64,000 nucleotides of DNA from Vreelandella halophila (lineage in GTDB: Bacteria > Pseudomonadota > Gammaproteobacteria > Pseudomonadales > Oleiphilaceae): NCBI RefSeq assembly GCF_019903425.1, contig NZ_JACHUZ010000013.1, positions 961,619-1,025,618 on the forward strand. The letters are read 5' to 3'. Under the pieces are notes generated by a model. It worked only from the letters and a program-made list of their open reading frames with translations. It made no database searches and was not told the origin of the DNA. The number at the start of each line of letters is the position of its first letter. The stretch's first letter is position 1. Positions 17,450-52,871 of the stretch are shown one piece after another. Made by a program: the position numbers and the translations under genes.

Positions 17450-18606
17450 GGCACGAAGGCCTCCAGCACGTCGTTCAGAAAGCGCTGGCCCTGGTCGGTC
17501 ACGGCCAGGCGCTGTTCATCCGCCACGAGCAGCCCACGCCTGCGGAGCTGTGCGAGTTGATCATGGATGCGTTCCAAGGGTAGGCCGGTTCGTTCCGGGA
17601 AGGAAGAGATTGGCACACCGGCGCTCAGCCGCAAGGTGTTCAGGAGGAATTCCAGTGGGCGGTCCTCGTGCTCCAGCTCCTGGCGGCCAGCGGTGCGGCT
17701 GCCGATGCGGTTGAGGTAGTCCTCCGGGCGGCGGGTCTTCCAGTAGCGCAGTATCCGGTCCGAAGCCGGGTGGGTCAGCTTGCCGTGGCCGCCGGCGCCG
17801 ATGGCCAGGTAGTCTCCGAAGCGCCAGTAGTTCAGGTTGTGCCGGCACGCCTCGCCGGGGCGTGACCAGGCCGAGACCTCGTAGCGCTGCAGCCCGTATC
17901 CGGTCAGGCAGGCCTCGCCCGCTTCCTGAATGCTGGCCAGCGTATCCTCGTCCGGCAGGGTGGGCGGATGCGAGTGGAATACCGTGTTGGGCTCGATGGT
18001 GAGCTGGTACCAGGAAATGTGGCCGGTGTCGAAGGCCAGGGCGGTCTCCAGGTCGGTCACCGCCTGTTCCGGTGTCTGGTCCGGGAGGCCGTGCATCAGG
18101 TCGATGTTGATGCGCTCGAAGCCCGCGGCCTGGGCCGCTTTCACCGCACGCGAGGCATCGTCGCCGCCGTGGATCCGGCCCAGGCGCTCCAGGTGATCCG
18201 GGTCGAAGCTCTGGACCCCGAGCGAGAGGCGGTTGATGCCCGCGTTGCGAAAGCCGGTGAAACGCGCTTCCTCCACGGTGCCGGGGTTGGCCTCCAGCGT
18301 GATCTCGTCCAGCCGGGACAGGTCCAGGCGCTGTGCCAGGGCCTCGAATAGCCGTTCGTAGAAGGACGGTGACATGAGCGAGGGCGTGCCGCCGCCGATG
18401 AAGATGGCTTCAACGGGGCGTGTCTCCGGCGTTGTCAGGTCCGCATCCAGATCCGCTAGCAGGGCGGCGAGGTAGTCGTCCTCCGGGATCACTTGCGGTG
18501 CCGTGTGGGAGTTGAAGTCGCAGTACGGGCACTTGCGCACGCACCAGGGCGTGTGCACATAGAGCGTCAGTGGCGGTGCGGTGAAAGCCTCAGGCGACGC
18601 TGTCAC
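17446..18606 (-). CDS. hemW: radical SAM haem chaperone HemW
   Basis: This 386-residue protein has the radical SAM cluster motif C-x3-C-x2-C in [12 protein letters not shown] and HemW features such as [11 protein letters not shown] and [17 protein letters not shown]. HemW inserts haem into respiratory enzymes; it is often misnamed coproporphyrinogen III dehydrogenase, from which it differs by lacking the extra cysteine. I start at GTG 18606, with GGGAG 7 bp upstream; it overlaps the rdgB end by 17 bp. The frame stays open upstream but there overlaps rdgB completely. Confidence 0.93.
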
Positions 18607-37601: not shown

Positions 37602-39407
37602 GTGAACAAACGACACGCCCTTCTGCCTCTGGCAGCTGCGGTCAGCCTTTCTACGTCCTTAGCTACGGCGCAGGAGACAGACCGGACCACTCAGGTCGCT
37701 GCGTTTAACATGAATCCTCTGGTTGTTACCTCAACGCTTGGCGTTGAGACCGTCAGTGAGAGTCTTTCTTCTGTGACGGTAATTGACTCCAAGGATCTCC
37801 AGCAGCGTAACCCCCGGGAATTCAGCGATGTCCTTCAGGGGCAGCCAGGGATTAATGTTACCTCCAGTGGAAGTTTTGGTAAGAACACCAGCGTTTTCAC
37901 TCGGGGAACCAGCAGTGAGTCAACGATACTGCTGCTGGATGGCATCCGGATCCGCTCGGCAACTGCGGGAAGTGCGCCCTGGCAATATATACCACCCCAG
38001 TTACTTCAACGAATCGAGGTTGTCCGTGGTCCCAAGGGAGCCCTTTATGGATCCGATGCCGTCGGCGGGGTTGTACAGGGGTTCACCATGCCGCGTGGCG
38101 ATCAGGACCAACAGTGGGTCGAGATGGGTGGCGGTAGCTTTTCCACCCAGCAGGTCAGCGGTGGCATTAGCGGCCAGAACGGTGACACCCGATACAGTCT
38201 ACAGGGCCACTACCTCGACACGGACGGCACCAACCTGCGTACCGGTGGTGAAGATAAAGGTTTTCGGAATAGAGCGGGAACCTTCAGCGTGAGCCATGGT
38301 TTTGATAATGGCGCGTCCATCGGAGTAGTAGGTCTTCAGAGCAGCGGAAACACTGAATTTTTCCGCGGGGAAACCGATTTTGATGTGAGGACGTTGGGTG
38401 TGAAAGCAAGCACGCCTATCGTTCGAAACTGGACGACGTCCATACAACTCAGTGAGGCACGGGACGAACAGGACAACGAGAGGAACAGTGGTCCCAGTTT
38501 TTTCGATACGGTGAGTCGAACAGCGCGGTGGGAGAATACGTTCAGTTTCGGGAACCATGAACTGATTGCCGGCACTGAATATCGCGTGGATGATGTCGAC
38601 AGCAGTGAGCCTTATGAGGAAGACAGTCGCAGCAACAGGGCTGCATTCGCTCAGCTGTTGAGCGAATTTGGAGCTGCCAGTCTGCAGCTCAGTGGCCGCT
38701 GGGACGACAACGAGGCCTTTGGTGAAGAGGCGACAGGGGCAGTGGCACTTGGGTACGATCTGAGCCCTGTATACAGCGCGCGAGCCAGTTACGGGACTGC
38801 ATTTCGAGCGCCGACCTTCAATGACCTCTACTACCCGGGTTTTGGCAACCCGGATCTGGAGCCTGAGACCTCTGGAACCGTTGAAGTTGGTTTTCGGTCG
38901 GATCGGGAATCGGTCTTCTGGGACGTCGCATTATTCAGGACGGATGTTGATAACCTGATCAGTGCCCAGCCGGACAACATCGAACGTGCACGCATCGACG
39001 GTATAGAGCTTTCCGGTGGTCTTTCGGTGTCAAACTTTGAGATGACCTCCGCTGTTACCTTTCAGGATCCCGAAGACCGCTCCACTGGTAACCGCCTGGC
39101 ACGGCGCTCGAAGCGAAGCGTTCGGGTTGATGCCGATTACACGCCCGCCAACTATCACTTTGGTGCATCGTTCATCGCCGAGGGCGATCGTTACAACAAG
39201 CCGCAGAACAACAAAGTCCTTGCGGGCTTTGGGCGACTCGATCTTCGAGCGGGCATGGATGTGACCCGCCTTCTCTCGCTCAGTGTGAATGTTGAGAACG
39301 TCTTTGATCGGCGTTACAGCACCACCAGTCGGGACTTTGCGCCGACGTTTGACTACCTGACTGCCGGTCGCGCCGTCTATGCCACCATCCGTTACGGAGC
39401 GCAATAA
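37602..39407 (+). CDS. btuB: TonB-dependent outer membrane receptor, BtuB type
   Basis: This 601-residue receptor has a signal peptide (residues 1-23), a TonB box near NPLVVTST, a plug domain (LLLDGIRIR, RIEVVRGPKGALYGSDAVGGVV) and a 22-strand barrel ending YATIRYGAQ. The length and plug resemble BtuB. The cobalamin riboswitch directly upstream makes a corrinoid the likely ligand. The start is GTG 37602 with GGGAG 7 bp upstream. Its base composition is less GC-rich than the genes around it. The stop overlaps the cobN start (TAATG). Confidence 0.93.
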   Translation: MNKRHALLPLAAAVSLSTSLATAQETDRTTQVAAFNMNPLVVTSTLGVETVSESLSSVTVIDSKDLQQRNPREFSDVLQGQPGINVTSSGSFGKNTSVFTRGTSSESTILLLDGIRIRSATAGSAPWQYIPPQLLQRIEVVRGPKGALYGSDAVGGVVQGFTMPRGDQDQQWVEMGGGSFSTQQVSGGISGQNGDTRYSLQGHYLDTDGTNLRTGGEDKGFRNRAGTFSVSHGFDNGASIGVVGLQSSGNTEFFRGETDFDVRTLGVKASTPIVRNWTTSIQLSEARDEQDNERNSGPSFFDTVSRTARWENTFSFGNHELIAGTEYRVDDVDSSEPYEEDSRSNRAAFAQLLSEFGAASLQLSGRWDDNEAFGEEATGAVALGYDLSPVYSARASYGTAFRAPTFNDLYYPGFGNPDLEPETSGTVEVGFRSDRESVFWDVALFRTDVDNLISAQPDNIERARIDGIELSGGLSVSNFEMTSAVTFQDPEDRSTGNRLARRSKRSVRVDADYTPANYHFGASFIAEGDRYNKPQNNKVLAGFGRLDLRAGMDVTRLLSLSVNVENVFDRRYSTTSRDFAPTFDYLTAGRAVYATIRYGAQ

Positions 39408-42400
39408 TGCGATATGGACTTTGCTTCGCCGCCCTGATGCTGCTGGCGGCACCCGCACTGCACGCCGCTACCATCGTCGGCATCGTCTCCGACCGCTCCT
39501 CCGCCGAGATGGCGGCCGGGGCGGAACGGCATCTTGAAGCCTTTCCGGAGAACGAGATCGTCCTCCGGACGCCGGAGCAGCTGAAAAAGCTCCCGGACGA
39601 GGAAGTAGTCAGGCTCTGGGACGATGCCGATGCGCTGGTTCTTGCCGCCGTCTTTGGCGAGGAGCACGGCCGCATTCGTCGCCTGGTCCGCAACCAGGGA
39701 CCGGGCGCCGACGTGCCCATCATGGCCATGAACAGCAAGCGCGGGATTACGCGCCTCTCGCGGCTGGATGGTGAGCCGGTCATGGATGAGCTCTCGGACA
39801 AGACCATCAACGAAATGGTCTCCAACCCCGAGCCCGGCGAGGATCCCTCCGCCCACCTGGCGGACCAGCGCGAGGCCTATCCCGAGCAGTCCGAGTGGCT
39901 GAAAGGGCGAGCCTTCTACCAGGGCCGCAGCCCCGAGCACATGGATGGGCTTTTCCGCTGGCTGCTGTCGCAGGCCGGGTATGACATCAAGGTGCCGGAA
40001 CCCGAACCCCGCGAGGCCATCCGCTATTACCGTGACGGCGAAGCCCATTCCGACGCGGATGCACTGAACCTCAAGGAGGGCCCGGCCGTGGCCCTGATAG
40101 ATCTGGATTCCGGCGATCGCCCGGGCGACAAGGCCCTGCTCGACGACGCCTGCGAACAGATGGAGCAGCGCGGCATCCAGTGCTTCACCATCCTGGCGCG
40201 CTGGGGAGGGGCCAGTGTCGAGGCCGTTAAGACGCTGGAGGAACGCATCAAGCCGGCAACCCTGTCCGGCATGGTCAGTCTCCAGTACTTCACCGTAGGC
40301 GGCGGCGATGGTCGTAAAGCCGTCACCAAGGCGTTCGAAGAGCTCGACGTGCCCGTCATCAAGGGCATCCGCATCTCCAAGCTGACCAGGCCCGAGTGGC
40401 TGCTCTCCGATGAGGGGCTGCCCTGGGATTCCGTGCACTACCAGCTCGCCATGCCCGAACTCCAGGGCATCAGCCAGCCCATGGTGCTGGCCGTGGCGGA
40501 GCCGCCGCGCATCGACGAGCTGACGGGCGTGCAGCTCATGCTGAGTACGCCGGTGGAGGAGCGCGTCAACGCCCTCGCGAACCGCATGGAGCGCTGGGTG
40601 ACGCTTCAGGAGAAGGACAACTCGGACAAGCGCGTCGCCGTGGTCTACTACAACCACCCGCCGGGCCGGCAGAACATCGGCGCGGACAAGCTCAACGTCC
40701 CGGAATCCCTGTTCGAGATCCTGCAACGCCTTAAAGCGGAAGGCTACAAGACGGGCAAGCTGCCCGAGTCCCCAGAAGCCCTGCTGGATGAAATCCAGGA
40801 TCGCGGCGTAAACCTGCCGGACCAGCAGTCCGGACTGGAAGATCTGGCCGGAAAGGTTCCCTCCGTAAGCAAGGAGACCTACCTGGAGCGGTTCAAGGAA
40901 CTGCCGGAAGCCGTCCAGGCGGAGATGCAGCATGGCCCCGTGGGCTACATGCATGCCCAGTTGAAAAACGCCGCCAACAACGGCCACACCAAGCTCGGCA
41001 ATGACTTGCTCAAGAACGGCGTGAAGGACCTGCGCCACATGCTGCGCAACTATGAGCACGACGCCACCCAGCGTGCCCTGGACCTGCTTGACCAGTACCA
41101 GACCGGCTGGCGTGCCGTGCTCCGCAACGAGGTGGACTCGACCGAGAAGGTCACCAGCATCCGCGATGCCCTGATCCGCACAGGCATCCCGGGCCTCTCT
41201 GGCTGGGGTGAGGCGCCGGGCCGTTCCATGGTCCACGAGGGTGAGATGCTGTTCCCCGGCATCCACTTCGGCAACGTCTTCATCGGCCCGCAGCCGCCGC
41301 GTGGCTGGGAAGTGAGCGAGGAACTGCTGCACGCCAATACCACCTTCCCGCCCACGCACCAGTACGTAGGCTTCTACCAGTGGCTGCGCAAGGACTTCAA
41401 CGCGGACGCGCTCGTCTACCTCGGCCGTCACTCCACCCGCGAGTTCCTGCCCCGGCGCCGCGCCGGCCTGGCCGAGGACGATTACCCGGAGCTGCTTGGT
41501 AAGGACCTCCCGCTCCTCTACCCCTACATCGTCGATGGGGTAGGCGAGGGCATCCAGGCCAAGCGCCGCGCCATGGGCGTGATGATCAGCCACCTCACGC
41601 CGCCGCTGGAGACCACCAAGCTCTACGACAACCTGCTGGAACTGCGCCAGCTCGTCGAAACCTGGGAATCCTCCAACGACCCGGATTCCTCCTCGCGCGA
41701 CCGTGCCGTGAAGGAACTGCGCAAGCGCCTCAAGGAACTGGACATGGTCCAGGACATCGAGAAGGAACTGGCCCACGGCCATCATCATGGTCACGAAGGT
41801 GAGCATGGCGATGAGGGTGATCACGAGGAAGGTGAGCACGAGAAAGGTGAGCACGAGAAAGGCGAAGAACACCATCACGAGCATGAGAGCGCCGAGAAAC
41901 CCGAAGGCGGGGGTGAGCATGCCCATGACCATAACCACGAGGGTGGCGAGCACCACGACCATGAGCATCATCACGAGGCTGGTGACGAGGTGGCTCACAA
42001 GGAGCAGGAGCACCATCACGAGCATGATGAGGCGAAACATCAGGAAGAGGGTGAGCACGCCCACGAGCATAACCACGACGAGGGCGAAGAACACGCTCAC
42101 GAACACCACCACGACGAGCACGAGGAAGAAGTCCACCTGGAAGACGTGGACGACGAACTCCTCGTCCACGAGGTCGGCCACTACCTGACCACCATGCAGG
42201 AAAGCTTCATGCCCCTGGGTCTGCACGTCTTCGGGCGTGACTGGAAGCAGGAAGGCATCGAGACCATGCTCAGCTCCATGGCCGGCGACGACGAGGAACC
42301 CGAGCCCGAGTGGCGTGAGAAGCTCAAGGCCTCCCCCGGCGAAGAGATGGACCACCTCATGGCCGGCCTCGATGGCCGCTTCGTCCCACCGGGCGAGGGT

Positions 42401-44101
42401 AACGACCCTGTGCGTACCCCGGCGGTACTGCCCACCGGCCGCAACTTCCATGCCCTCTCCAGCGACCTGGTCCCGACCCGCGTCGCCTGGTCCCTGGGCG
42501 CGGAAATGGCCGAGGACGCCCGTAACAAGGGCGACCCCAAGGCCGAGGGCAGCGAGGCCATCGTTCTCTGGGCGTCCGACACCGTCCGTGATGAAGGCGT
42601 GATGATCGCCTTCGGCCTGGACATGCTCGGCATCAAGCCCAAGTGGAACTCCCGGGGCATCGTGGAAGGCCTTGAGCGCATGCCGCTGGAGGACCGGAGC
42701 CGGCGCCGCGACGCACTCTTCACCACCTCCGGCCTGTTCCGGGACCTCTACGAGGACCAGCTGGTACTGCTCGACCAGGCCTCGCGCCTGGCGCTGGACG
42801 GGGCCTACAAAACTATCATGGAAAAGCACCCGCAGCTGGACCGCGCCCTGGAAACGGCCATGGAACCGCTGCCCGAGGACATGCGCGATCCCGGCAGTGA
42901 AAGCCTGGCCGAGAACGACGTGGCCGCCCGCTGGGTCGCCGACACCAAGGCCATGATGGCCAACGGCGCCGATGCCGAGAAAGCCGGCTCCGATGCGGCG
43001 CTGCGCGTCTTCGGCACCGCTCCAGGCTCCTACGGCGCCGGCGTGAACCGTTTGGCCGACCGTTCTGGCGCCTGGGATGATCGCGGCAAGGTTGCCGACG
43101 CCTACACCCGCCGCATGGGCTACGCCTTCGGTGGCGACAAGCAGGGCGGCCGCCCGGCGCATGACGCCTTCAAGGACCGCCTGGACAACGTCGGGCGCAC
43201 CTACCTCGGCCGCGCCAGTCACGTCTACGGCCTGCTCGACAACGACGACGGCTTCGACTTCCAGGGCGGCCTCTCCATGGCCGTGGAACACGAAACCGGT
43301 GAGGCGCCGACCAACCGCGTGCTCATGCACGCCGACCCGGAGAACCCCAGGGTCGAATCCCTGCAACAGGCCCTGCTCAGCGAACTCCGCGGCCAGAACC
43401 TGAACCCGCAGTGGATCAAGCCGCTGATGGAACAGGGCTACGCCGGCGCAAGGACCATGTCCGCCGACTTCCTGGACAACCTCTGGGGATGGCAGGTCAC
43501 AAGCCCGGATGTGGTCAAATCCGCGGTCTGGGACGACATAAACGAGGTCTACTTCGAAGACCGCCACAACCTGGGTCTCGACAAGTTCCTTGAGAAAGAC
43601 CACAACGTCCACGTCAAAACCCACATGCAGGCCATCACCCTGGTCGCCGCCCACCGCGGCTTCTGGAAGCCCGATGAGGAGACCCTCAAAAAGCTGCGCA
43701 AGGAATTCGCCCAGCTCGTCGTCGAGAACGGCCTCCCTGGTAGCGGCCATACCAGGCCGGACCATCCCACCATGCAATGGGTGGCCGAACAGCTGAGTGA
43801 CGCCGAACTGAAGAAGAACTTCAAAGCCGTCCTCAACGCCGCCCGAATGGAAGCCCCGGAAAGCGGCAAGGCCCAACCGGTGAGCATGCGCGAAGTCAAA
43901 ATGAAACAGAAAGCCAATCAGCAGGAAGCCGCTGAGAAAGCTCAAAAGCAATCGGAAAAGGAAAAGGGTAAGAAGTCCGAAGAATCCGACGAGCAACAGG
44001 CTTCCGCCGAAGGCGGCCCGGTCCTGCTGCCATGGTTTATCGGCGCCGGCGCTCTGGTCCTTCTTGGAGGCGGCGTAGTAGCCGGTAGACGGATCTCGTA
44101 A
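39407..44101 (+). CDS. cobN: exported, membrane-anchored CobN-like chelatase with a histidine-rich insert
   Basis: This 1564-residue protein is a CobN/BchH-family large chelatase subunit, but is longer than the usual 1250-1450. It has a signal peptide (MRYGLCFAALMLLAAPALHA) and a C-terminal membrane helix (about residues 1540-1560, LLPWFIGAGALVLLGG) after a charged linker, so the body should face the periplasm. Residues 790-910 form an insert with about 40 histidines among Glu, Asp and Gly, a likely metal-binding arm. Classical CobN is cytosolic and needs the CobS and CobT AAA+ partners; neither is here. It is coupled to btuB and followed by ExbB-like, DUF2149 and btuFCD genes, the layout of Bacteroidetes haem operons in which CobN-like HmuS occurs. 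Cobalt insertion or removal are both possible. Confidence 0.88.
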   Translation: MRYGLCFAALMLLAAPALHAATIVGIVSDRSSAEMAAGAERHLEAFPENEIVLRTPEQLKKLPDEEVVRLWDDADALVLAAVFGEEHGRIRRLVRNQGPGADVPIMAMNSKRGITRLSRLDGEPVMDELSDKTINEMVSNPEPGEDPSAHLADQREAYPEQSEWLKGRAFYQGRSPEHMDGLFRWLLSQAGYDIKVPEPEPREAIRYYRDGEAHSDADALNLKEGPAVALIDLDSGDRPGDKALLDDACEQMEQRGIQCFTILARWGGASVEAVKTLEERIKPATLSGMVSLQYFTVGGGDGRKAVTKAFEELDVPVIKGIRISKLTRPEWLLSDEGLPWDSVHYQLAMPELQGISQPMVLAVAEPPRIDELTGVQLMLSTPVEERVNALANRMERWVTLQEKDNSDKRVAVVYYNHPPGRQNIGADKLNVPESLFEILQRLKAEGYKTGKLPESPEALLDEIQDRGVNLPDQQSGLEDLAGKVPSVSKETYLERFKELPEAVQAEMQHGPVGYMHAQLKNAANNGHTKLGNDLLKNGVKDLRHMLRNYEHDATQRALDLLDQYQTGWRAVLRNEVDSTEKVTSIRDALIRTGIPGLSGWGEAPGRSMVHEGEMLFPGIHFGNVFIGPQPPRGWEVSEELLHANTTFPPTHQYVGFYQWLRKDFNADALVYLGRHSTREFLPRRRAGLAEDDYPELLGKDLPLLYPYIVDGVGEGIQAKRRAMGVMISHLTPPLETTKLYDNLLELRQLVETWESSNDPDSSSRDRAVKELRKRLKELDMVQDIEKELAHGHHHGHEGEHGDEGDHEEGEHEKGEHEKGEEHHHEHESAEKPEGGGEHAHDHNHEGGEHHDHEHHHEAGDEVAHKEQEHHHEHDEAKHQEEGEHAHEHNHDEGEEHAHEHHHDEHEEEVHLEDVDDELLVHEVGHYLTTMQESFMPLGLHVFGRDWKQEGIETMLSSMAGDDEEPEPEWREKLKASPGEEMDHLMAGLDGRFVPPGEGNDPVRTPAVLPTGRNFHALSSDLVPTRVAWSLGAEMAEDARNKGDPKAEGSEAIVLWASDTVRDEGVMIAFGLDMLGIKPKWNSRGIVEGLERMPLEDRSRRRDALFTTSGLFRDLYEDQLVLLDQASRLALDGAYKTIMEKHPQLDRALETAMEPLPEDMRDPGSESLAENDVAARWVADTKAMMANGADAEKAGSDAALRVFGTAPGSYGAGVNRLADRSGAWDDRGKVADAYTRRMGYAFGGDKQGGRPAHDAFKDRLDNVGRTYLGRASHVYGLLDNDDGFDFQGGLSMAVEHETGEAPTNRVLMHADPENPRVESLQQALLSELRGQNLNPQWIKPLMEQGYAGARTMSADFLDNLWGWQVTSPDVVKSAVWDDINEVYFEDRHNLGLDKFLEKDHNVHVKTHMQAITLVAAHRGFWKPDEETLKKLRKEFAQLVVENGLPGSGHTRPDHPTMQWVAEQLSDAELKKNFKAVLNAARMEAPESGKAQPVSMREVKMKQKANQQEAAEKAQKQSEKEKGKKSEESDEQQASAEGGPVLLPWFIGAGALVLLGGGVVAGRRIS

Positions 44102-44102
44102 A

Positions 44103-44220
44103 TACCCGGAGGAGGGGGCGGGGTGTTCGTAGGGAAGCTCGATCGCCAGGGATGGCGATCGCGCAGCGTCCATGGATGGATTTATAGCGATTCCCGGAGA
44201 ACACCCCGCCCCCTCCGGTA
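44103..44220. repeat. large hairpin repeat, copy C
   Basis: The outer arms share an 18-bp perfect inverted repeat (44111-44128 and 44199-44216), with a short insertion in the left arm further out. The inner hairpin is CGATCGCCA/TGGCGATCG, a different sequence from copies A and B but in the same place. The shared tail reads GGATGGATTTATAGCG then TTCCCGG. It lies between cobN and the ExbB-like gene. Confidence 0.88.
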
Positions 44221-44276
44221 CGAGATTGAAATCTGGAGACAAAGCTCTCTATTCGGAATAGGTAAGTGAGGCAACA

Positions 44277-44723
44277 ATGTTCACATCCGCAACCCTGGAC
44301 ATCATGGATTCCATGGTCAGCTTCCTCCTGGAGCCGGTCATCATCGCCCTCCTGGGCCTGATCGCCCTGGCCCTCTGGGAAGCCGGCCTTGCCATCGGCG
44401 AACGCACCGGCGGCCTGCGCCGCATGATCGAACGCGGCGACACCCGTTCCCTCGCCGCCCGCGCCCAGCGCCGCATTGACCGCGCGGACCTCATCGCCCG
44501 CGTCGGCCCCATGATGGGCCTGATGGGTACCCTCATCCCCCTCGGCCCGGGCCTCGCCGCCCTCGGCCGGGGTGATCTGGACGTGCTGGCCGAGGCCGTG
44601 ACCGTCGCCTTCAACACCACCGTCCTCGGCCTGCTCGCCGGCATCATTGGCTTCCTGCTTGGCCGCATGCGCCGCCGCTGGTACGACGGCGCCATGGCGA
44701 AGCTGGAGGAGGCCGGCGCATGA
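44277..44723 (+). CDS. MotA/TolQ/ExbB-type proton channel protein, short form
   Basis: This 148-residue protein has three predicted helices (about residues 15-35, 75-100 and 112-130) and the family core RVGPMMGLMGTLIPLGPGL with AVTVAFNTTVLGL. ExbB and TolQ form the pentameric channel of ion-driven motors. It is shorter than ExbB (about 240). The ATG follows a GAGG site. It overlaps the DUF2149 gene by 4 bp, so the two proteins probably form one complex. Confidence 0.88.
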   Translation: MFTSATLDIMDSMVSFLLEPVIIALLGLIALALWEAGLAIGERTGGLRRMIERGDTRSLAARAQRRIDRADLIARVGPMMGLMGTLIPLGPGLAALGRGDLDVLAEAVTVAFNTTVLGLLAGIIGFLLGRMRRRWYDGAMAKLEEAGA

Positions 44724-45022
44724 GTGTGCCCGAGTACCGCAGCAGCCGCTTCGACGTGACCGACGAGGACCCCATGGGCCCTCTCGCCAACCTGGCTGAT
44801 ATCATGCTTGTATTCGCCGTCGGCCTGATGGTCGCGCTGGCCGCGTCCGAAAGGGCCAACGACCCCCAGGAAAGCGGCGTGGACGTGGAAGCCGGCCGCG
44901 AGATGCCGGAGCTGCCCGAGGGCGCCGGTGAGTCCGGCGAAGGCTTCCAGCCCATGGGCCAGGTCTACCAGGACCCGGAAACCGGCCGCATGATCATGAT
45001 CGACAAAGGGAAAAGCCAGTGA
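44720..45022 (+). CDS. DUF2149 protein, ExbD-like partner
   Basis: This 100-residue protein has a single N-terminal membrane helix (residues 22-42) preceded by DEDPMGPLANLADIMLVFAVG. The aspartate at the start of the helix is placed like the essential aspartate of ExbD and TolR. The rest is a short acidic periplasmic part ending QVYQDPETGRMIMIDKG. The family regularly lies beside short ExbB-like and CobN-like genes. It overlaps both neighbours by 4 bp. Function is inferred, not known. Confidence 0.82.
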   Translation: MSVPEYRSSRFDVTDEDPMGPLANLADIMLVFAVGLMVALAASERANDPQESGVDVEAGREMPELPEGAGESGEGFQPMGQVYQDPETGRMIMIDKGKSQ

Positions 45023-45909
45023 TCCGGACGCTGCACCGACTGATCGCCAGCGCGATTCTCCTGCTGGCTGCCATCCCGGCAGCCCATGCGGAAGTCTGTG
45101 CCAGGGATGACAAGGGCCGGGAGGTCTGCCTGGACGAGCCCGCCGAACGCATCATCAGCCTCTCCCCCGGTGCCACCGAGCTGCTCTTCGCCGCCGGTGC
45201 CGGTGACGACGTGGTGGGCGTGGTCAACTACAGCGACTACCCCGAAGCCGCGAAGGAACTGCCCATCATCGGCAGCCTCAAGCGGCTCGATGTCGAGCGG
45301 ATCCTGAGCCTGTCGCCGGACCTGGTGATTGTCTGGGTCACCGGTAACCCGAAGGAACAGACGGAGCGGCTGAAGGAACTGGACCTGACCCTGTACTACC
45401 TCGAGCCCCGGGATTTCGAGAGCATCGCCAGCGCCATCGAACGCCTCTCGACCCTGGCGGATACCGAAAAGACCGGCCACAGGGAAGCCGACCGGTTCCG
45501 CTCCGGGATCGAGTCCCTGCGTGAGGAATACGGCGATGCCGACCCGGTGCCGGTGTTTTACCAGGTCTGGGACCAGCCCCTGATGACCGTCAACGGCGAG
45601 CACTTCATCCATGAAGTGATCGAACTGTGCGGTGGCAAGAACGTCTATGCGGAGCTCGACCGGCTGGTGCCGCGCATCGACCGGGAGTCCGTGTTGAAGC
45701 GGAACCCCGAGGCCGTGGTTGCCGGCGGCATGGGCGAGGAAAACCGGGACTGGCTGGAAGAGTGGAAACAGTACGACTCGCTGACCGCCACCGAGCGGGA
45801 GAACCTCTTCTTCGTGAACCCGTCCACGTTGCAGCGCCCGACCCCGCGCCTGCTCGAAGGCGGCGCCACCCTGTGCGAGAAACTGGAGACGGCCCGTGGA
45901 CGCCGCTGA
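45019..45909 (+). CDS. btuF: cobalamin-binding periplasmic protein BtuF
   Basis: This 296-residue class III binding protein has a signal peptide (to about residue 24, AAHA) and the two-lobe BtuF/FhuD layout joined by a long helix. The ligand region begins IISLSPGATELLFAAGAGD. In this operon it would deliver corrinoids to BtuCD. The start is GTG overlapping the DUF2149 stop codon; 14 bp overlap the permease. Confidence 0.9.
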   Translation: MIRTLHRLIASAILLLAAIPAAHAEVCARDDKGREVCLDEPAERIISLSPGATELLFAAGAGDDVVGVVNYSDYPEAAKELPIIGSLKRLDVERILSLSPDLVIVWVTGNPKEQTERLKELDLTLYYLEPRDFESIASAIERLSTLADTEKTGHREADRFRSGIESLREEYGDADPVPVFYQVWDQPLMTVNGEHFIHEVIELCGGKNVYAELDRLVPRIDRESVLKRNPEAVVAGGMGEENRDWLEEWKQYDSLTATERENLFFVNPSTLQRPTPRLLEGGATLCEKLETARGRR

Positions 45910-46918
45910 AGCCGTCGCGCACCGGGCCAACGCCACCATGGCCGTTTCCGCCTGGCGCCCCTTCCTGCCACTGGTCTGGTTGGGGGTTGCCGGCCTGCTG
46001 GCGCTGCTCATGGCCGTGGCCATCGGCAGCGTCGCGATTCCCCCGGCTGACCTTTGGGCCGTCATAACAGGGGAGGGCAGCAGCCTCCACCAGACCCTGG
46101 TCTGGGAACTCCGTGCTCCACGCGCACTGGCCGGTTTTGCCACCGGCGGCCTGCTCGCCGTGGCCGGCGCCCTGATGCAGATCCTGCTCCGTAACCCGCT
46201 GGCCGATCCCTACGTGCTGGGCGTCTCCGGCGGTGCCTCCGTGGGCGCTCTGGCCGCCATGCTCACCGGCGCCGGCACCTTCGTCCTCTCGGGCTCCGCC
46301 TTTGGCGGTGCGCTGCTGTCCACCTTCCTGGTCTTCGGCCTTGCCCACGGCACCGGCAGCTGGACCCCGGCGCGGCTGCTGCTCACCGGCATCGTGGTCG
46401 CCTCTGGCTGGGGCGCCGTCATCACCCTGATGCTGGCCATCGGCCCCACGGACAAACTCCCCGGCATGCTCTACTGGCTTATGGGCGATCTCACCTACGC
46501 GCAGACCCCATGGCCAGCGCTGGTGCTTCTGGCACTCGTCTGCCTGCTGGTCATCCCATTGGGCCGCAGCCTTAACGTCCTCGCCCGGGGCCCGTTGCAG
46601 GCCGCAGCGCTTGGCGTGGCCGTGCGCCCGCTGGAATGGACCATCTACATCCTCGCCAGCCTGCTCACCGCACTGGCCGTCACCACCGCCGGCAGCATCG
46701 GCTTCGTGGGCCTGGTCGTGCCGCACATGCTCCGGCTCGTTCTGGGTAACGACCAGCGCCTCATCCTGCCGGCTTGCGCGCTGGCCGGCGGCGCGCTGCT
46801 GACGCTGGCGGACACGCTCGCGCGCATCGTCATCGCCCCCGAACAGCTCCCCGTGGGTGTGATCACCGCGCTGCTGGGCGTGCCGACCTTCCTCGTGCTG
46901 CTCTACCGGAGTCGCTGA
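45896..46918 (+). CDS. btuC: cobalamin ABC transporter permease BtuC
   Basis: This 340-residue FecCD-family permease is full length, with about ten helices. It shows RAPRALAGFATGGLLAVAGA, NPLADPYVLGVSGGAS and, near the end, LADTLARIVIAPEQLPVG. The start is GTG 45896 with GGAGA upstream; an ATG at 45938 is an alternative. It is clearly related to the shortened permease at 28331 but keeps the parts that one has lost. Confidence 0.93.
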   Translation: MDAAEAVAHRANATMAVSAWRPFLPLVWLGVAGLLALLMAVAIGSVAIPPADLWAVITGEGSSLHQTLVWELRAPRALAGFATGGLLAVAGALMQILLRNPLADPYVLGVSGGASVGALAAMLTGAGTFVLSGSAFGGALLSTFLVFGLAHGTGSWTPARLLLTGIVVASGWGAVITLMLAIGPTDKLPGMLYWLMGDLTYAQTPWPALVLLALVCLLVIPLGRSLNVLARGPLQAAALGVAVRPLEWTIYILASLLTALAVTTAGSIGFVGLVVPHMLRLVLGNDQRLILPACALAGGALLTLADTLARIVIAPEQLPVGVITALLGVPTFLVLLYRSR

Positions 46919-47691
46919 TGGCCGTGCTCGAGACCCGCGACCTCATCATCGACATCCCCGAGCGCGCCGACGGCCGCCCCCTCAGCCTGCGGATGGAACC
47001 CGGCCAGACCTGGGGCATACTCGGCCCCAACGGCGCCGGCAAGAGCACCCTGCTGCACACCCTCGGCGGCCTTAACCGCCCGAGGAGCGGCGAAGTGCGG
47101 ATCGACGACACCCCCTTGCGCCAGATGCGACGCAGCACCATCGCCCGGCAGCTCGGCGTCGTCTTCCAGGAACGCCAGGACGGCTTCCCCGCCACCGTCC
47201 TCGAAACCGCCCTCATCGGCCGCCACCCGTTCCTCTCACCATGGCAGCTCGAAGGCGGCGACGACCTCGAAATGGCCGAAAAAGCCCTGGAACGCCTGGA
47301 ACTCAGCGATCTGGCCGACCGCTCCGTCAGCACTCTCTCCGGCGGCGAACGCCAACGCGTCGCCCTGGCCACAGCCCTGACCCAGAGCCCCAGCATCTGG
47401 CTCGCCGACGAACCCACCAACCACCTGGACCTCCGCCACCAGGTGGCCGTAATGGAACTGCTCTCAGAGCAGGCTAGGGCAGGGCACACCGTTGTGATGT
47501 GCCTCCACGACCTCAACCTCGCCGCCCGCTGGTGCGACCACCTCCTGCTCCTGTACCCGGACGGCGAAGCCTGCTGGGGCGAGGCCGAAAGCATGCTCAA
47601 ACCCAAAGCCCTCGAACAGCTCTACGGCCAGCCCCTCACATGGGCGGAGGTGGATGGGGCGCCGGTCTTTGTCCCGTCATACAGCGGGTGA
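46918..47691 (+). CDS. btuD: cobalamin ABC transporter ATPase BtuD
   Basis: This 257-residue ATPase has Walker A LGPNGAGKST, signature LSGGERQRVALA, Walker B WLADEPTNHLD and the switch histidine in MCLHDLNLAARW. The start shares one base with the btuC stop codon (TGATG). It is the last gene of the riboswitch-controlled series; the next gene, hipB, has its own AT-rich promoter. Confidence 0.93.
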   Translation: MAVLETRDLIIDIPERADGRPLSLRMEPGQTWGILGPNGAGKSTLLHTLGGLNRPRSGEVRIDDTPLRQMRRSTIARQLGVVFQERQDGFPATVLETALIGRHPFLSPWQLEGGDDLEMAEKALERLELSDLADRSVSTLSGGERQRVALATALTQSPSIWLADEPTNHLDLRHQVAVMELLSEQARAGHTVVMCLHDLNLAARWCDHLLLLYPDGEACWGEAESMLKPKALEQLYGQPLTWAEVDGAPVFVPSYSG

Positions 47692-49433: not shown

Positions 49434-50750
49434 ATGACAGATTCGCGAACCATTACAGGCACAACGGCTGCCGCCATGATCACGGCCCCGGGCAGCGGCC
49501 ACGGCAAATCCATGGTCACCGCAGCCCTGGCACGCCTCCACAGGAACGAAGGCCGCAACGTCCGCGTTTTCAAGCACGGCCCGGACTACCTCGACCCCAT
49601 GGTCCTCGAAAGAGCCTCCGGCAACCCCGTCTACCAGGTCCACGGCTGGATGACCGGCATGGACGAAGTCCGCTGGCGCCTCGCCGAAGCCGCCCAGACC
49701 GCCGATCTCATCCTGGTCGAAGGCTCCATGGGCCTCTTCGACGGCGACCCCAGCACCGCCGACATGGCCGTCGCCTGCGGCATCCCCGCACTCCCGGTCA
49801 TCGGCGCTAACGCCATGGGCCAAACCTTCGGCGCCATCGCCCTCGGCCTCGCAAGATACCGCGACGACCTCGAAGTCAAAGAAGTCATCGCCAACCGCAC
49901 CGGCAGCGGCTACCACGCCCACCTGTGCAAGGAGAGCCTCCCCGAGGACATCAGCCTCCTCGGCGCCATCCCACGCAATGAGTCTTTCGACATCCCGGAC
50001 CGCCACCTGGGCATCGTCCAGGCCGACGAAATTACCGACCTCGACCAACAACTCGACGCCGCCGCCGAAGTCCTCAAAGAAGCCGGCCTCGACCAACTCC
50101 CGGCCCAGGTCACCCTGGAAGCAAAAACACCCGAACAACCGCCAAGGCTCCTCGAAGGCACCACCATCGCCATCGCCAAAGACGCCGCCTTCGCCTTCAT
50201 CTACCGGGCCAACACCGAACTCCTCGAAGCCATGGGCGCCCAACTCAAGTTCTTCTCCCCGCTCGCGGACAAAGAACTCCCGGACGCCGACGCCCTCTGG
50301 CTCCCCGGCGGCTACCCCGAACTCCACGGCCGAGCATTGGCCGAAAACACCGACATGAAAGCCGCCATCCAGGCCCATCACCAGGCCGGAAAACCCATCT
50401 ACGCCGAATGCGGCGGCCTGATGGCCTGCACCGAAGCCATGACCGACCCGGAAGACGGCACCGAACACAGCCTCTACGCCCTGATGCCCGGCAAAGTCTC
50501 CATGGCCCCCAAGCTCAAGGCACTGGGTATCCAGTCCCTGAACACCGACAATGGCGAACTCCGCGGCCACACCTTCCACCACTCCGAACTCGAAACGGGA
50601 CGGGAACCGGCCATGAGAACGACCAAGAAAAACGGCAGCGAAGGGGAGCGCGTGTTCAAGCAGGGCTCACTCACGGCGAGCTACTTCCACGGCTACTTCC
50701 CCACCGCCCCGAAACTGGTTGCGGAACTTTTCAAAGGTCAGGAGCGATAA
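49434..50750 (+). CDS. cobB: cobyrinate a,c-diamide synthase
   Basis: This 438-residue enzyme amidates side chains a and c of cobyrinate (or hydrogenobyrinate) using glutamine. It has an N-terminal ATPase domain with APGSGHGKS and a C-terminal class I amidotransferase domain with the nucleophile cysteine in IYAECGGLMA and a catalytic histidine in SYFHGYF. The strong run of C-ending codons sets it apart from hipA just before it. Two bases separate it from cobO. Confidence 0.93.
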   Translation: MTDSRTITGTTAAAMITAPGSGHGKSMVTAALARLHRNEGRNVRVFKHGPDYLDPMVLERASGNPVYQVHGWMTGMDEVRWRLAEAAQTADLILVEGSMGLFDGDPSTADMAVACGIPALPVIGANAMGQTFGAIALGLARYRDDLEVKEVIANRTGSGYHAHLCKESLPEDISLLGAIPRNESFDIPDRHLGIVQADEITDLDQQLDAAAEVLKEAGLDQLPAQVTLEAKTPEQPPRLLEGTTIAIAKDAAFAFIYRANTELLEAMGAQLKFFSPLADKELPDADALWLPGGYPELHGRALAENTDMKAAIQAHHQAGKPIYAECGGLMACTEAMTDPEDGTEHSLYALMPGKVSMAPKLKALGIQSLNTDNGELRGHTFHHSELETGREPAMRTTKKNGSEGERVFKQGSLTASYFHGYFPTAPKLVAELFKGQER

Positions 50751-50752
50751 CG

Positions 50753-51364
50753 ATGCGAGAGAACGCAAAAGACCCGGAACGCCACGCCCAACGGATGGCC
50801 CGCAAGAAAAAGGTCATGGAAGAACGCATGGCCAACGCCCAGAAAGACCAGGGCGTCCTCCTCGTGAACACCGGCAACGGCAAGGGCAAAAGCTCCGCCG
50901 GCTTCGGCATGGTCGCCCGCACCCTCGGCCACGGCCTGCAGGTGGGCATCGTCCAGTTCATCAAGGGCAAGATGCAGACCGGCGAGGAACGCTTCTTCCG
51001 TGACCAGGCCAACGTCGATTACCACGTCATGGGCGACGGCTACACCTGGGACACCCAGGACCGGGAAAAGGACGTTGAAGCCGCCGAGAACGCCTGGAAA
51101 GAAGCCGCGCGCATGCTCTCCGACGAGCGCTACAGCCTGGTGCTGCTCGACGAACTCAATATCGCCCTGCGCTACGAATACCTCGACCTCGACCGCGTCC
51201 TGGACGATCTCCAGAACCGCCCCGAGATGCAGCACGTCGTGGTCACCGGCCGGAACGCCCCGAAAGAGCTGATCGAGCTGGCCGACACCGTCACCGACAT
51301 GACCATCGTCAAGCACGCGTTCAAGGATCTCGGCGTCCGTGCCCAGAAAGGCGTCGAATTGTAG
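50753..51364 (+). CDS. cobO: corrinoid adenosyltransferase, CobO/BtuR type
   Basis: This 203-residue enzyme adds the adenosyl group to cob(I)yrinate diamide and other corrinoids. The P-loop VNTGNGKGKSSAGFG and LVLLDELNIALRYEYLD are diagnostic. AGGAG precedes the ATG. Its stop codon is the first part of a REP-like palindrome. Confidence 0.94.
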   Translation: MRENAKDPERHAQRMARKKKVMEERMANAQKDQGVLLVNTGNGKGKSSAGFGMVARTLGHGLQVGIVQFIKGKMQTGEERFFRDQANVDYHVMGDGYTWDTQDREKDVEAAENAWKEAARMLSDERYSLVLLDELNIALRYEYLDLDRVLDDLQNRPEMQHVVVTGRNAPKELIELADTVTDMTIVKHAFKDLGVRAQKGVEL

Positions 51365-51437: not shown

Positions 51438-52871
51438 ATGCAATCGCTGATGGTCATGGGCACCACCTCGGACTCCGGCAAGAGCACCATCGTCGCCGCC
51501 CTCTGCCGCTGGCTCCACCGCCAGGGCGTCTCCGTGGCCCCGTTCAAGCCCCAGAACATGGCCCTGAACAGCGCCGTTACCGAAGACGGCGGCGAGATCG
51601 GCCGCTCCACCGCCCTCCAGGCCCTGGCCTGCGGCATCGAACCGCACAGCGACATGAACCCCGTGCTCCTCAAGCCCCAGACCGACCGCGGCGCCCAGGT
51701 CATCCTGAGAGGGCAGGTCTACGGCAACATGGACGCCGTCGACTACCATGGCTTCAAGAAAGAAGCCCGCAAGAGCGTCATGGCCGCCTGGGAAGCGCTC
51801 AAGGCCCGCTACGATGTGATCATCGTCGAAGGCGCTGGCAGCCCCGCCGAAATCAACCTGCGCGAAAACGACATCGCCAACATGGGCTTCGCCGAAGCCG
51901 CCGACCTGCCCGTACTGCTCGTCGGCGACATCGACCGCGGCGGCGTCTTCGCCCAGCTCGCCGGCACCCTCCAGCTCCTGTCCCAGTCCGAACGCGACCG
52001 CGTCACCGGCCTGCTCATCAACCGCTTCCGCGGCGACCCGGCGCTGCTCGAAGACGGCCTCAAATGGCTCGAAGACTACACCGGCAAACCCCTCGTCGGC
52101 GTCTTCCCCTACCTCCAGGGCCTCATCCTGGACGCCGAAGACAGCGTCGGCCTCACCGGCACCGAGGCCGACGAAGACGCCCTCAAGGTCGTCGTCCCCG
52201 CGCTCCCCAGAATGAGCAACCACAACGACTTCGACCCCCTGCGCCTCCACCCCAAGGTGGACCTCCAGTTCATCGGCCCCGACCAACCCAAACCCGGCGC
52301 CGACCTCATCATCCTCCCCGGCAGCAAAAGCACCCGCAGCGACTGCGAATGGCTCAAGGCCCAGGGCTGGCATGAGCACATCCAGCGCCACCTGCGCTAC
52401 GGCGGCAAAGTGCTCGGGATCTGTGGGGGATTCCAGATGCTGGGCAAAACCATCGCGGACCCGGACGGCATCGAAGGCGAGCCCGGGGAAACCGACGGGC
52501 TGAAACTGCTGGATCTTGAGACGCGGCTGGTGGAAGGGAAGCAGCTGCGGCGGGTGACCGGGGTGTTTGCGGAAAGCGGGACGCCGATGAGTGGGTATGA
52601 GATTCATAACGGGGTGACGACGGGGAGTGCGTTGGAGCGGCCGTTGGTGTCATTGGATGGGCGGCCGGATGGGGCGGTTAGTGAGGACCAGGCCGTTGCT
52701 GGCTGCTACATCCATGGGGTGTTTGATGGCGCAGAGGCCTGCGACACGCTGCTGGTATGGGCCGGGCTACACAACCACCAGGCAATCTCTGATTATCAGC
52801 AACACAGATTGGCAGAGCTGGACCGGCTGGCTGATGCTGTGACGGAGCATGTTAGCGCGGACCTGCTTTAA
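51438..52871 (+). CDS. cobQ: cobyric acid synthase
   Basis: This 477-residue enzyme adds four amides to adenosylcobyrinate diamide. The ATPase part begins [20 protein letters not shown] and the amidotransferase part has the nucleophile cysteine in [11 protein letters not shown] and a histidine in [15 protein letters not shown] lies before the ATG. It closes the cobalamin region; after it the base composition drops. Confidence 0.95.

Follow-up and report, generated by a model that had tools for sequence, protein, structure and literature searches.

A candidate periplasmic corrin cobaltochelatase with an ExbB-like/DUF2149 pair in a B12-riboswitch operon of Vreelandella halophila

CobN-like proteins and the operon of Vreelandella halophila

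In current descriptions, late insertion of cobalt into the corrin ring takes place in the cytosol and consumes ATP, CobN being assisted by AAA+ proteins and the chaperone CobW. Here we analyze an operon from a 64,000-nucleotide stretch of the Vreelandella halophila genome (contig NZ_JACHUZ010000013.1, positions 961,619 to 1,025,618; hereinafter, the window) that encodes an apparently exported CobN along with an ExbB-like protein and a DUF2149 protein. Exported CobN proteins of the BtuS/HmuS type and the CobN-ExbB-DUF2149 gene order are already known. The BtuS family was delineated as related to CobN but distinct from both CobN and ChlH, with a predicted role in metalloporphyrin salvage (Rodionov 2003, as summarized in PMC6460266). 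In the hmuYRSTUV operon of Bacteroidota, which also includes a TonB-dependent receptor gene, HmuS/BtuS, a CobN-like protein that has a membrane segment at either end, is followed by an ExbB-like protein and a DUF2149 protein (PMC12583661, PMC6460266). HmuS is a membrane-bound de-chelatase that handles haem and removes the iron in an NADH-dependent reaction; its haem site includes Met79 and His254, and it contains a DHxxE motif and a Met-rich insert in domain IV (PMC12583661). In Pseudomonas aeruginosa, the zinc-regulated PA1922-PA1925 cluster, a part of the Zur regulon, combines a TonB receptor, a CobN-like protein, a proton-channel protein and DUF2149 (PMC9431628). The plasmid pSZ77 of Trichlorobacter (Geobacter) lovleyi encompasses a CobN without CobS and CobT, which was remarked on in 2012, when its function was called unknown, together with ExbB-DUF2149 and TonB receptors (PMC3403914). 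Our literature search found no paper in which cobalt insertion during B12 synthesis is placed in the periplasm or attributed to a proton drive, and none that assigns a function to DUF2149.

The operon consists of seven co-directional genes, all on the plus strand, that are headed by a cobalamin riboswitch (RF00174, 37230..37447, 112.9 bits). A btuB-like TonB-dependent receptor gene with a GTG start and a signal peptide (37602..39407; E-value of 1.5e-131 against TIGR01779, yet under the equivalog cut-off) is followed by cobN, which encodes a 1564-amino acid CobN-type chelatase (39407..44101; Pfam CobN-Mg_chel, E 7.8e-235), the exbB-like gene for a 148-amino acid, three-helix proton-channel subunit (44277..44723; MotA_ExbB, PF01618, E 2.7e-10), the DUF2149 gene (44720..45022; 100 amino acids, Pfam DUF2149, E 6.9e-10), and the genes for the corrinoid-binding protein BtuF (45019..45909; Peripla_BP_2), the permease BtuC (45896..46918; FecCD) and the ATPase BtuD (about 46918..47691; ABC_tran). 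Each gene junction overlaps, with the sole exception of the 175 bp gap between cobN and the exbB-like gene. Gene calls, Pfam and RF00174 thus bear out the layout that was described, from the nucleotide sequence alone, in an earlier note on this DNA, including the overlaps, the riboswitch and a repeat in the gap.

The same note had proposed that CobN is exported and C-terminally anchored, and this prediction is upheld. The protein contains two hydrophobic segments, residues 9-27 and 1539-1557, the latter with a basic tail. The former is part of a signal peptide (residues 1-20, 39407..39466), with cleavage expected between ALHA and the following Ala; in the 16 orthologues, an N-terminal hydrophobic or A-x-A signal precedes a similar mature start, V-G-V/I-V-S-x-R-S, and a misassigned start codon therefore does not explain the signal peptide. 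The C-terminal membrane anchor (44021..44077, detected by a hydrophobic-segment scan) has a short hydrophobic counterpart in all 16 orthologues, two of which fall marginally under the scan threshold.

With its Pfam match and the invariant histidine in the G-x-H loop, the protein belongs among the class I chelatase large subunits (CobN/ChlH/HmuS, PF02514); this universal active-site residue, His675 (41429..41431), aligns with HmuS His538. The second catalytic site of HmuS differs: His1209 is replaced by Asp1281 (43247..43249), the corrin-chelatase type residue that is also found in cytosolic CobN, and where HmuS has LSLDHxxEFMGG, with His1209 and Glu1212, the window-type proteins, that is, the window CobN and its close relatives, have LLDNDDGFDFQGG. 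The haem ligand positions Met79 and His254 are occupied in these proteins by Val/Ile and Tyr/Asp/Phe/Asn/Gly, respectively, and the Met-rich insert of domain IV is lacking. The window CobN contains elsewhere a His/Asp/Glu-rich insert (residues 779-914, 41741..42148, with 40 His), which among the orthologues is confined to the genus of the host and genome G016. Because of this narrow distribution, and because it is offset by about 130 residues towards the N-terminus in the alignment, we rejected it as a substitute for the Met-rich insert. At the same site, the cytosolic CobN of genome G063 carries a (DH)n run (locus L147, about residues 648-709), possibly an independent cobalt-feeding loop.

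In a sequence search of PDB, HmuS was the best single match of the window CobN (344 bits), followed by CobN (333 bits). The predicted fold of residues 1-778, the part covered by the model, is closer to Mycobacterium tuberculosis CobN (Z 28.6) than to HmuS (Z 16.3), a comparison of moderate weight given the mean predicted local distance difference test (pLDDT) score of 73. In a tree of 65 CobN-family sequences, the window type forms one clade with a long stem and a support of 100 (Shimodaira-Hasegawa-like approximate likelihood ratio test, SH-aLRT), apart from HmuS, from cytosolic CobN and from the remaining exported clades. The latter include the separate clade of gammaproteobacterial exported CobN that we denote strong-type, whose loci are comparable to the PA1922-PA1925 cluster and to which PA1923 may belong. 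A B12 riboswitch was detected at 13 of the 16 window-type loci examined and at none of the five strong-type loci. Taken together, the active-site residues, clade, fold and riboswitch identify the window CobN as a predicted corrin-type chelatase that is not HmuS. The comparison with HmuS made in the earlier note accordingly stands for the architecture, an exported, membrane-anchored protein encoded next to ExbB-like and DUF2149 genes, and falls for membership, given the separate clade and the absence of the haem ligands and the second catalytic His. The operons differ as well: whereas the hmu operon is iron-regulated and dedicated to haem, that of the window has the B12 riboswitch, the corrin-type Asp and the CbiA and CobO neighbours.

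Two kinds of CobN and the corrin pathway of the host

With the cytosolic CobNST and CobN-ChlID systems, the window CobN shares the large-subunit fold, the active-site signature and the position in the pathway, after CbiA/CobB and before CobO. Unlike these enzymes, which lack an export signal and have CobS/CobT or ChlI/ChlD partners, it is exported and anchored, with the ExbB-like/DUF2149 pair next to it, no adjoining CobW and no ATPase partners: targeted searches of the host genome, on which the gene absences reported here rest, found a single CobN (the exported one), no CobS and, for CobT/ChlID-type proteins, generic AAA matches only, as the earlier note had anticipated for CobS and CobT.

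This distinction extends across a survey set of 369 gammaproteobacterial genomes, in which the counts refer to genomes, not to independent events. DUF2149 was detected above the cut-off in 20 genomes, all of which also encode CobN, against 41 genomes with CobN or BchH in the whole set (P about 5e-22 for the co-occurrence of DUF2149 and CobN, without phylogenetic correction). At the fetched gammaproteobacterial loci, the CobN, ExbB-like and DUF2149 genes lie together, and in a GTDB scan for DUF2149 that counted loci with 6.5 kb or more of upstream sequence, CobN was present at 54 of the 62 loci, six of the eight exceptions being archaeal. All pair-linked CobN proteins whose sequence was complete at both ends, whether gammaproteobacterial, archaeal or from Bacteroidota or Planctomycetota, carry an export signal together with a membrane segment at the C-terminus, a few marginally under the threshold. 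The CobN or BchH of the other 21 genomes have neither signal nor anchor, some of these sequences being incomplete at contig ends. A CobT/ChlI/ChlD-type ATPase was found in 20 of these 21 genomes (TIGR02442, at least 277 bits), the remaining genome being only 58% complete, but in none of the 20 DUF2149 genomes, where the matches to TIGR02442 did not exceed 48 bits and were of the generic AAA kind (Fisher test, 8e-11). The survey of co-occurrence without CobS/CobT that the earlier note had called for thus gave a clear outcome: the exported kind of CobN, which goes with the pair, and the cytosolic kind, which goes with an ATPase, exclude one another. At least six genomes have CobW next to the cytosolic CobN; it was not found beside the exported CobN of the B12 clade, except for a distant generic relative at one locus (L046). 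A strong CobS match in genome G180 was not counted as a cobaltochelatase subunit, being remote from the cob genes (L185); this gene and a possible CobT-like neighbour adjoin an apparent sulfoacetaldehyde acetyltransferase gene, read by eye, and appear to be CobS/CobT-like proteins with another job.

The host encodes a corrin-ring cluster (L183), located 640 kb from the window, that includes CobG, above the cut-off, CobI and CobH, both of the aerobic type, and also CobJ, CobM, CbiD, CobK and CbiET. CobG together with aerobic-type CobI and CobH is characteristic of the pathway with metal-free intermediates (PMC7689651). CobG was also identified in six further genomes with exported CobN; three genomes with this combination (G126, G158 and G273), in which CbiX was not found, contain the triad of CobN, ExbB-like and DUF2149 genes inside the corrin operon. 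CobG matches above the cut-off in genomes G316 (L194) and G332 (L195) were not counted because they are isolated from cob genes, the true G316 cluster being L199. Throughout the window-type clade, the neighbours of the triad are CbiA, which catalyzes the step before cobalt insertion, and CobO, which catalyzes a later one. In the window itself, cbiA/cobB (49434..50750, plus strand) encodes the a,c-diamide synthase, the enzyme of the step immediately preceding late cobalt insertion, and cobO (50771..51364, plus strand) the corrinoid adenosyltransferase that acts after it. Given the full aerobic corrin-ring cluster, the absence of another CobN, of CobS and of an ATPase partner, and these flanking genes, de novo cobalt insertion appears to be at least as likely as the use of scavenged corrinoids, on which the earlier note had settled. 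Elimination and context point to the exported CobN as the best candidate for cobalt insertion in the host.

The corrin operon of the host has a B12 riboswitch of its own and carries, between CbiD and CobH, an ABC-2 ATPase-permease gene pair. Of the two divergent riboswitches of L183 (17852-18061, minus strand, and 18139-18352, plus strand), one heads this operon, and the other precedes a gene for a second BtuB-like receptor. The ABC-2 pair occupies the same place in all seven genomes with exported CobN and CobG and in none of the four comparable corrin clusters with cytosolic CobN. ABC-2 transporters are usually exporters. The pair belongs to a widespread family, and the seven genomes represent about two lineages only; a loop of export through ABC-2 and return through BtuFCD is therefore put forward here as a hypothesis.

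The gap between cobN and the exbB-like gene contains a near-perfect inverted repeat of 33 nt (44111..44216), and a hairpin of -85 kcal/mol (z -6.4) is predicted for the gap. In two sister species, this gap is only 25 nt long, and therefore the repeat is probably an inserted element rather than a component of the chelatase machine; a third sister has a shorter related stretch. The repeat resembles inserted elements of the repetitive extragenic palindrome (REP) or miniature inverted-repeat transposable element (MITE) kind. Downstream of the operon, cobO is followed by cobQ, the cobyric acid synthase gene (51438..52871, plus strand), and, together with cbiA, cobO and cobQ, the upstream genes cobU, cobT, cbiB and cobC make the late part of the B12 pathway complete.

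The ExbB-like/DUF2149 pair and the proposed mechanism

The Pfam match and the three-helix fold place the ExbB-like protein among the MotA/TolQ/ExbB proton channels. It contains the motif GPMxGLMGTLIPLGPGL, and its structural model (pLDDT 90.6) yields ExbB as the top PDB matches (E 7e-3, prob 1.0). DUF2149 has a single N-terminal transmembrane helix, in which N24 and D27 are invariant across several phyla, and a short periplasmic tail with the motif GxVYxDPETG. With the ExbB-ExbD, TolQ-TolR and MotA-MotB stators, the pair shares the three-helix ExbB-like subunit and a partner with one transmembrane helix that carries an invariant Asp. Unlike ExbD, DUF2149 has a tail much shorter than the periplasmic part of ExbD and no detectable homology with it (hhalign probability of 0.6% against ExbD/TolR, PF02472, with small alignments).

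The observations are compatible with the following scheme. CobN, exported but held at the inner membrane through its C-terminal helix, would have a central cleft in which the corrin ring binds, and the ExbB-like and DUF2149 proteins would together act as a motor of the ExbB/ExbD (MotA/MotB) type, powered by protons. Replacing the AAA+ ATPases CobS/CobT or ChlI/ChlD, this motor would strain the enzyme-substrate complex such that cobalt enters the cramped corrin ring. The metal-free corrin would leave the cytosol, the ABC-2 transporter of the corrin-ring operon being the candidate exporter, receive cobalt in the periplasm, in what would be the late insertion step of aerobic B12 synthesis, and be carried back, loaded with cobalt, by BtuFCD for use by CobO and the enzymes after it. 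Scavenged corrinoids that lack a metal could be metallated by this machine as well. The proton motive force, which the earlier note had proposed as a possible drive, is the only plausible energy source; we infer the proton drive itself, the contact between CobN and the motor, and insertion as opposed to removal of the metal. That the operon encodes a periplasmic corrin cobaltochelatase, driven by the ExbB-like/DUF2149 proton motor and responsible for the late insertion step in the host, seems to us to have an even chance of being correct. A broader version, which we advance tentatively and as somewhat less probable than its negation, joins two propositions: that late cobalt insertion also exists in another form, with cytosolic ring synthesis, ABC-2 export, periplasmic proton-driven metallation and BtuFCD re-import, and that ExbB-DUF2149 works in general as a proton motor for enzymes outside the cytoplasm, those of single-membrane archaea included.

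Alternative explanations and implications

Several other explanations have to be considered. The earlier note had allowed that the ExbB-like/DUF2149 pair merely energises the outer-membrane receptor, so that CobN is independent of it; indeed, a receptor gene adjoins many triads, and in the published model of the hmu system the HmuU/HmuV pair energises the receptor HmuR (PMC12583661). However, methanogens and ANME-1 archaea encode DUF2162-ExbB-DUF2149-CobN next to corrin biosynthesis genes and have no outer membrane, and the TonB plug domain was absent from all 10 archaeal genomes tested. In T. lovleyi (pGLOV01, L219), DUF2162-ExbB-DUF2149-CobN is followed in one cluster by a full exbB-exbD-tonB set and a second receptor, and therefore the pair is unnecessary there as a receptor motor. 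This cluster, a natural separation of two motors, differs from the window type in this extra set and in lacking the BtuFCD, CbiA and CobO neighbours. The host has eight further ExbD/TolR matches outside the operon, the periplasmic part of DUF2149 is far shorter than that of ExbD, and at three loci (L046, L051 and L054) the trio has no recognised receptor alongside. The receptor-only explanation is, in our estimate, highly improbable, and because of the receptor-free archaeal triads and the separate TonB set of T. lovleyi, the pair most likely serves CobN. In archaea, ExbB-DUF2149 pairs without a nearby CobN were also observed (L072, L073, L082, L086, L100 and L103), several of them adjoining DUF2162 and NosD/beta-helix-like surface proteins with a signal peptide and a C-terminal transmembrane helix, which suggests other clients of the same motor.

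A more serious contender, although we still consider it unlikely, is that the exported CobN acts in the manner of HmuS, removing or exchanging, under the drive of the pair, the metal of corrinoids imported by BtuB, as a way of gaining cobalt or of correcting wrong metallation. The top sequence match in PDB is HmuS, a de-chelatase encoded in a similarly built operon and the only biochemically studied relative, which removes metal (PMC12583661); BtuB and BtuFCD share the operon with CobN; one archaeal triad adjoins the genes of the CbiM cobalt uptake transporter; and there are window-type loci without CobG. Against this explanation, the window CobN lacks the haem ligands and the second catalytic His of HmuS, the operon is B12-responsive, such that removal of cobalt from B12 during B12 starvation would hardly be sensible, and the aerobic pathway of the host would be left without a cobalt-insertion enzyme. 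In a further explanation, cobalt is inserted elsewhere, early by the CbiX-like protein or by another chelatase, and the exported CobN is a corrinoid-binding or shuttling accessory of uptake. Several window-type genomes encode a clear CbiX, and the genus of the host has a two-domain CbiX-like protein (L192 732-1829, L193 1200-2051), in which the first half has DNGS instead of HGS and the second half keeps both His-containing motifs, so that a class II chelatase might operate in this genus, no search having been made for CbiK. Yet CobG and aerobic-type CobI/CobH belong to a pathway with metal-free intermediates (PMC7689651), the genomes G126, G158 and G273 have CobG and no detected CbiX, and the catalytic His675 is invariant; we regard insertion elsewhere as rather improbable.

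Apart from these rivals, some observations count against a proton-driven periplasmic cobaltochelatase as proposed here, in addition to the metal-removing activity of HmuS, the CbiX-like protein, the low hhalign probability between DUF2149 and ExbD/TolR and the widespread family and few lineages of the ABC-2 pair. Ten window-type genomes are under the CobG cut-off, and six of these have no corrin-ring genes within about 30 kb of the locus; there, the machine may serve the salvage of incomplete or metal-free corrinoids, or another pathway. The archaeal pairs that adjoin other anchored surface proteins imply that the pair is not exclusive to CobN. Finally, in Marinobacter sp. M3C the anchor, ExbB and DUF2149 are all absent although CobN is exported. 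This protein, a close relative of the window CobN (60%) that is encoded on a plasmid (L218 13935-18137) with no ExbB or DUF2149 gene ahead of cobO, keeps the signal peptide, whereas the anchor and the pair are gone together. On balance, the interpretation given in the earlier note is partly supported.

The known clients of ExbB-type motors are outer-membrane receptors, the Tol-Pal system, flagella and the gliding machinery. Should periplasmic, proton-driven cobalt insertion prove correct, an enzyme would join this list, DUF2149 would acquire a function, and a textbook step of B12 synthesis would exist in two versions that differ in compartment and energy source, which would explain how aerobic B12 producers without CobS, CobT or ChlID complete the pathway. 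The split between exported and cytosolic CobN makes the old annotation problem of CobN without CobS/CobT directly testable. There would also be a consequence for how gut Bacteroidota use haem: the expected client of HmuU/HmuV would be HmuS, in place of the receptor HmuR that current models draw.

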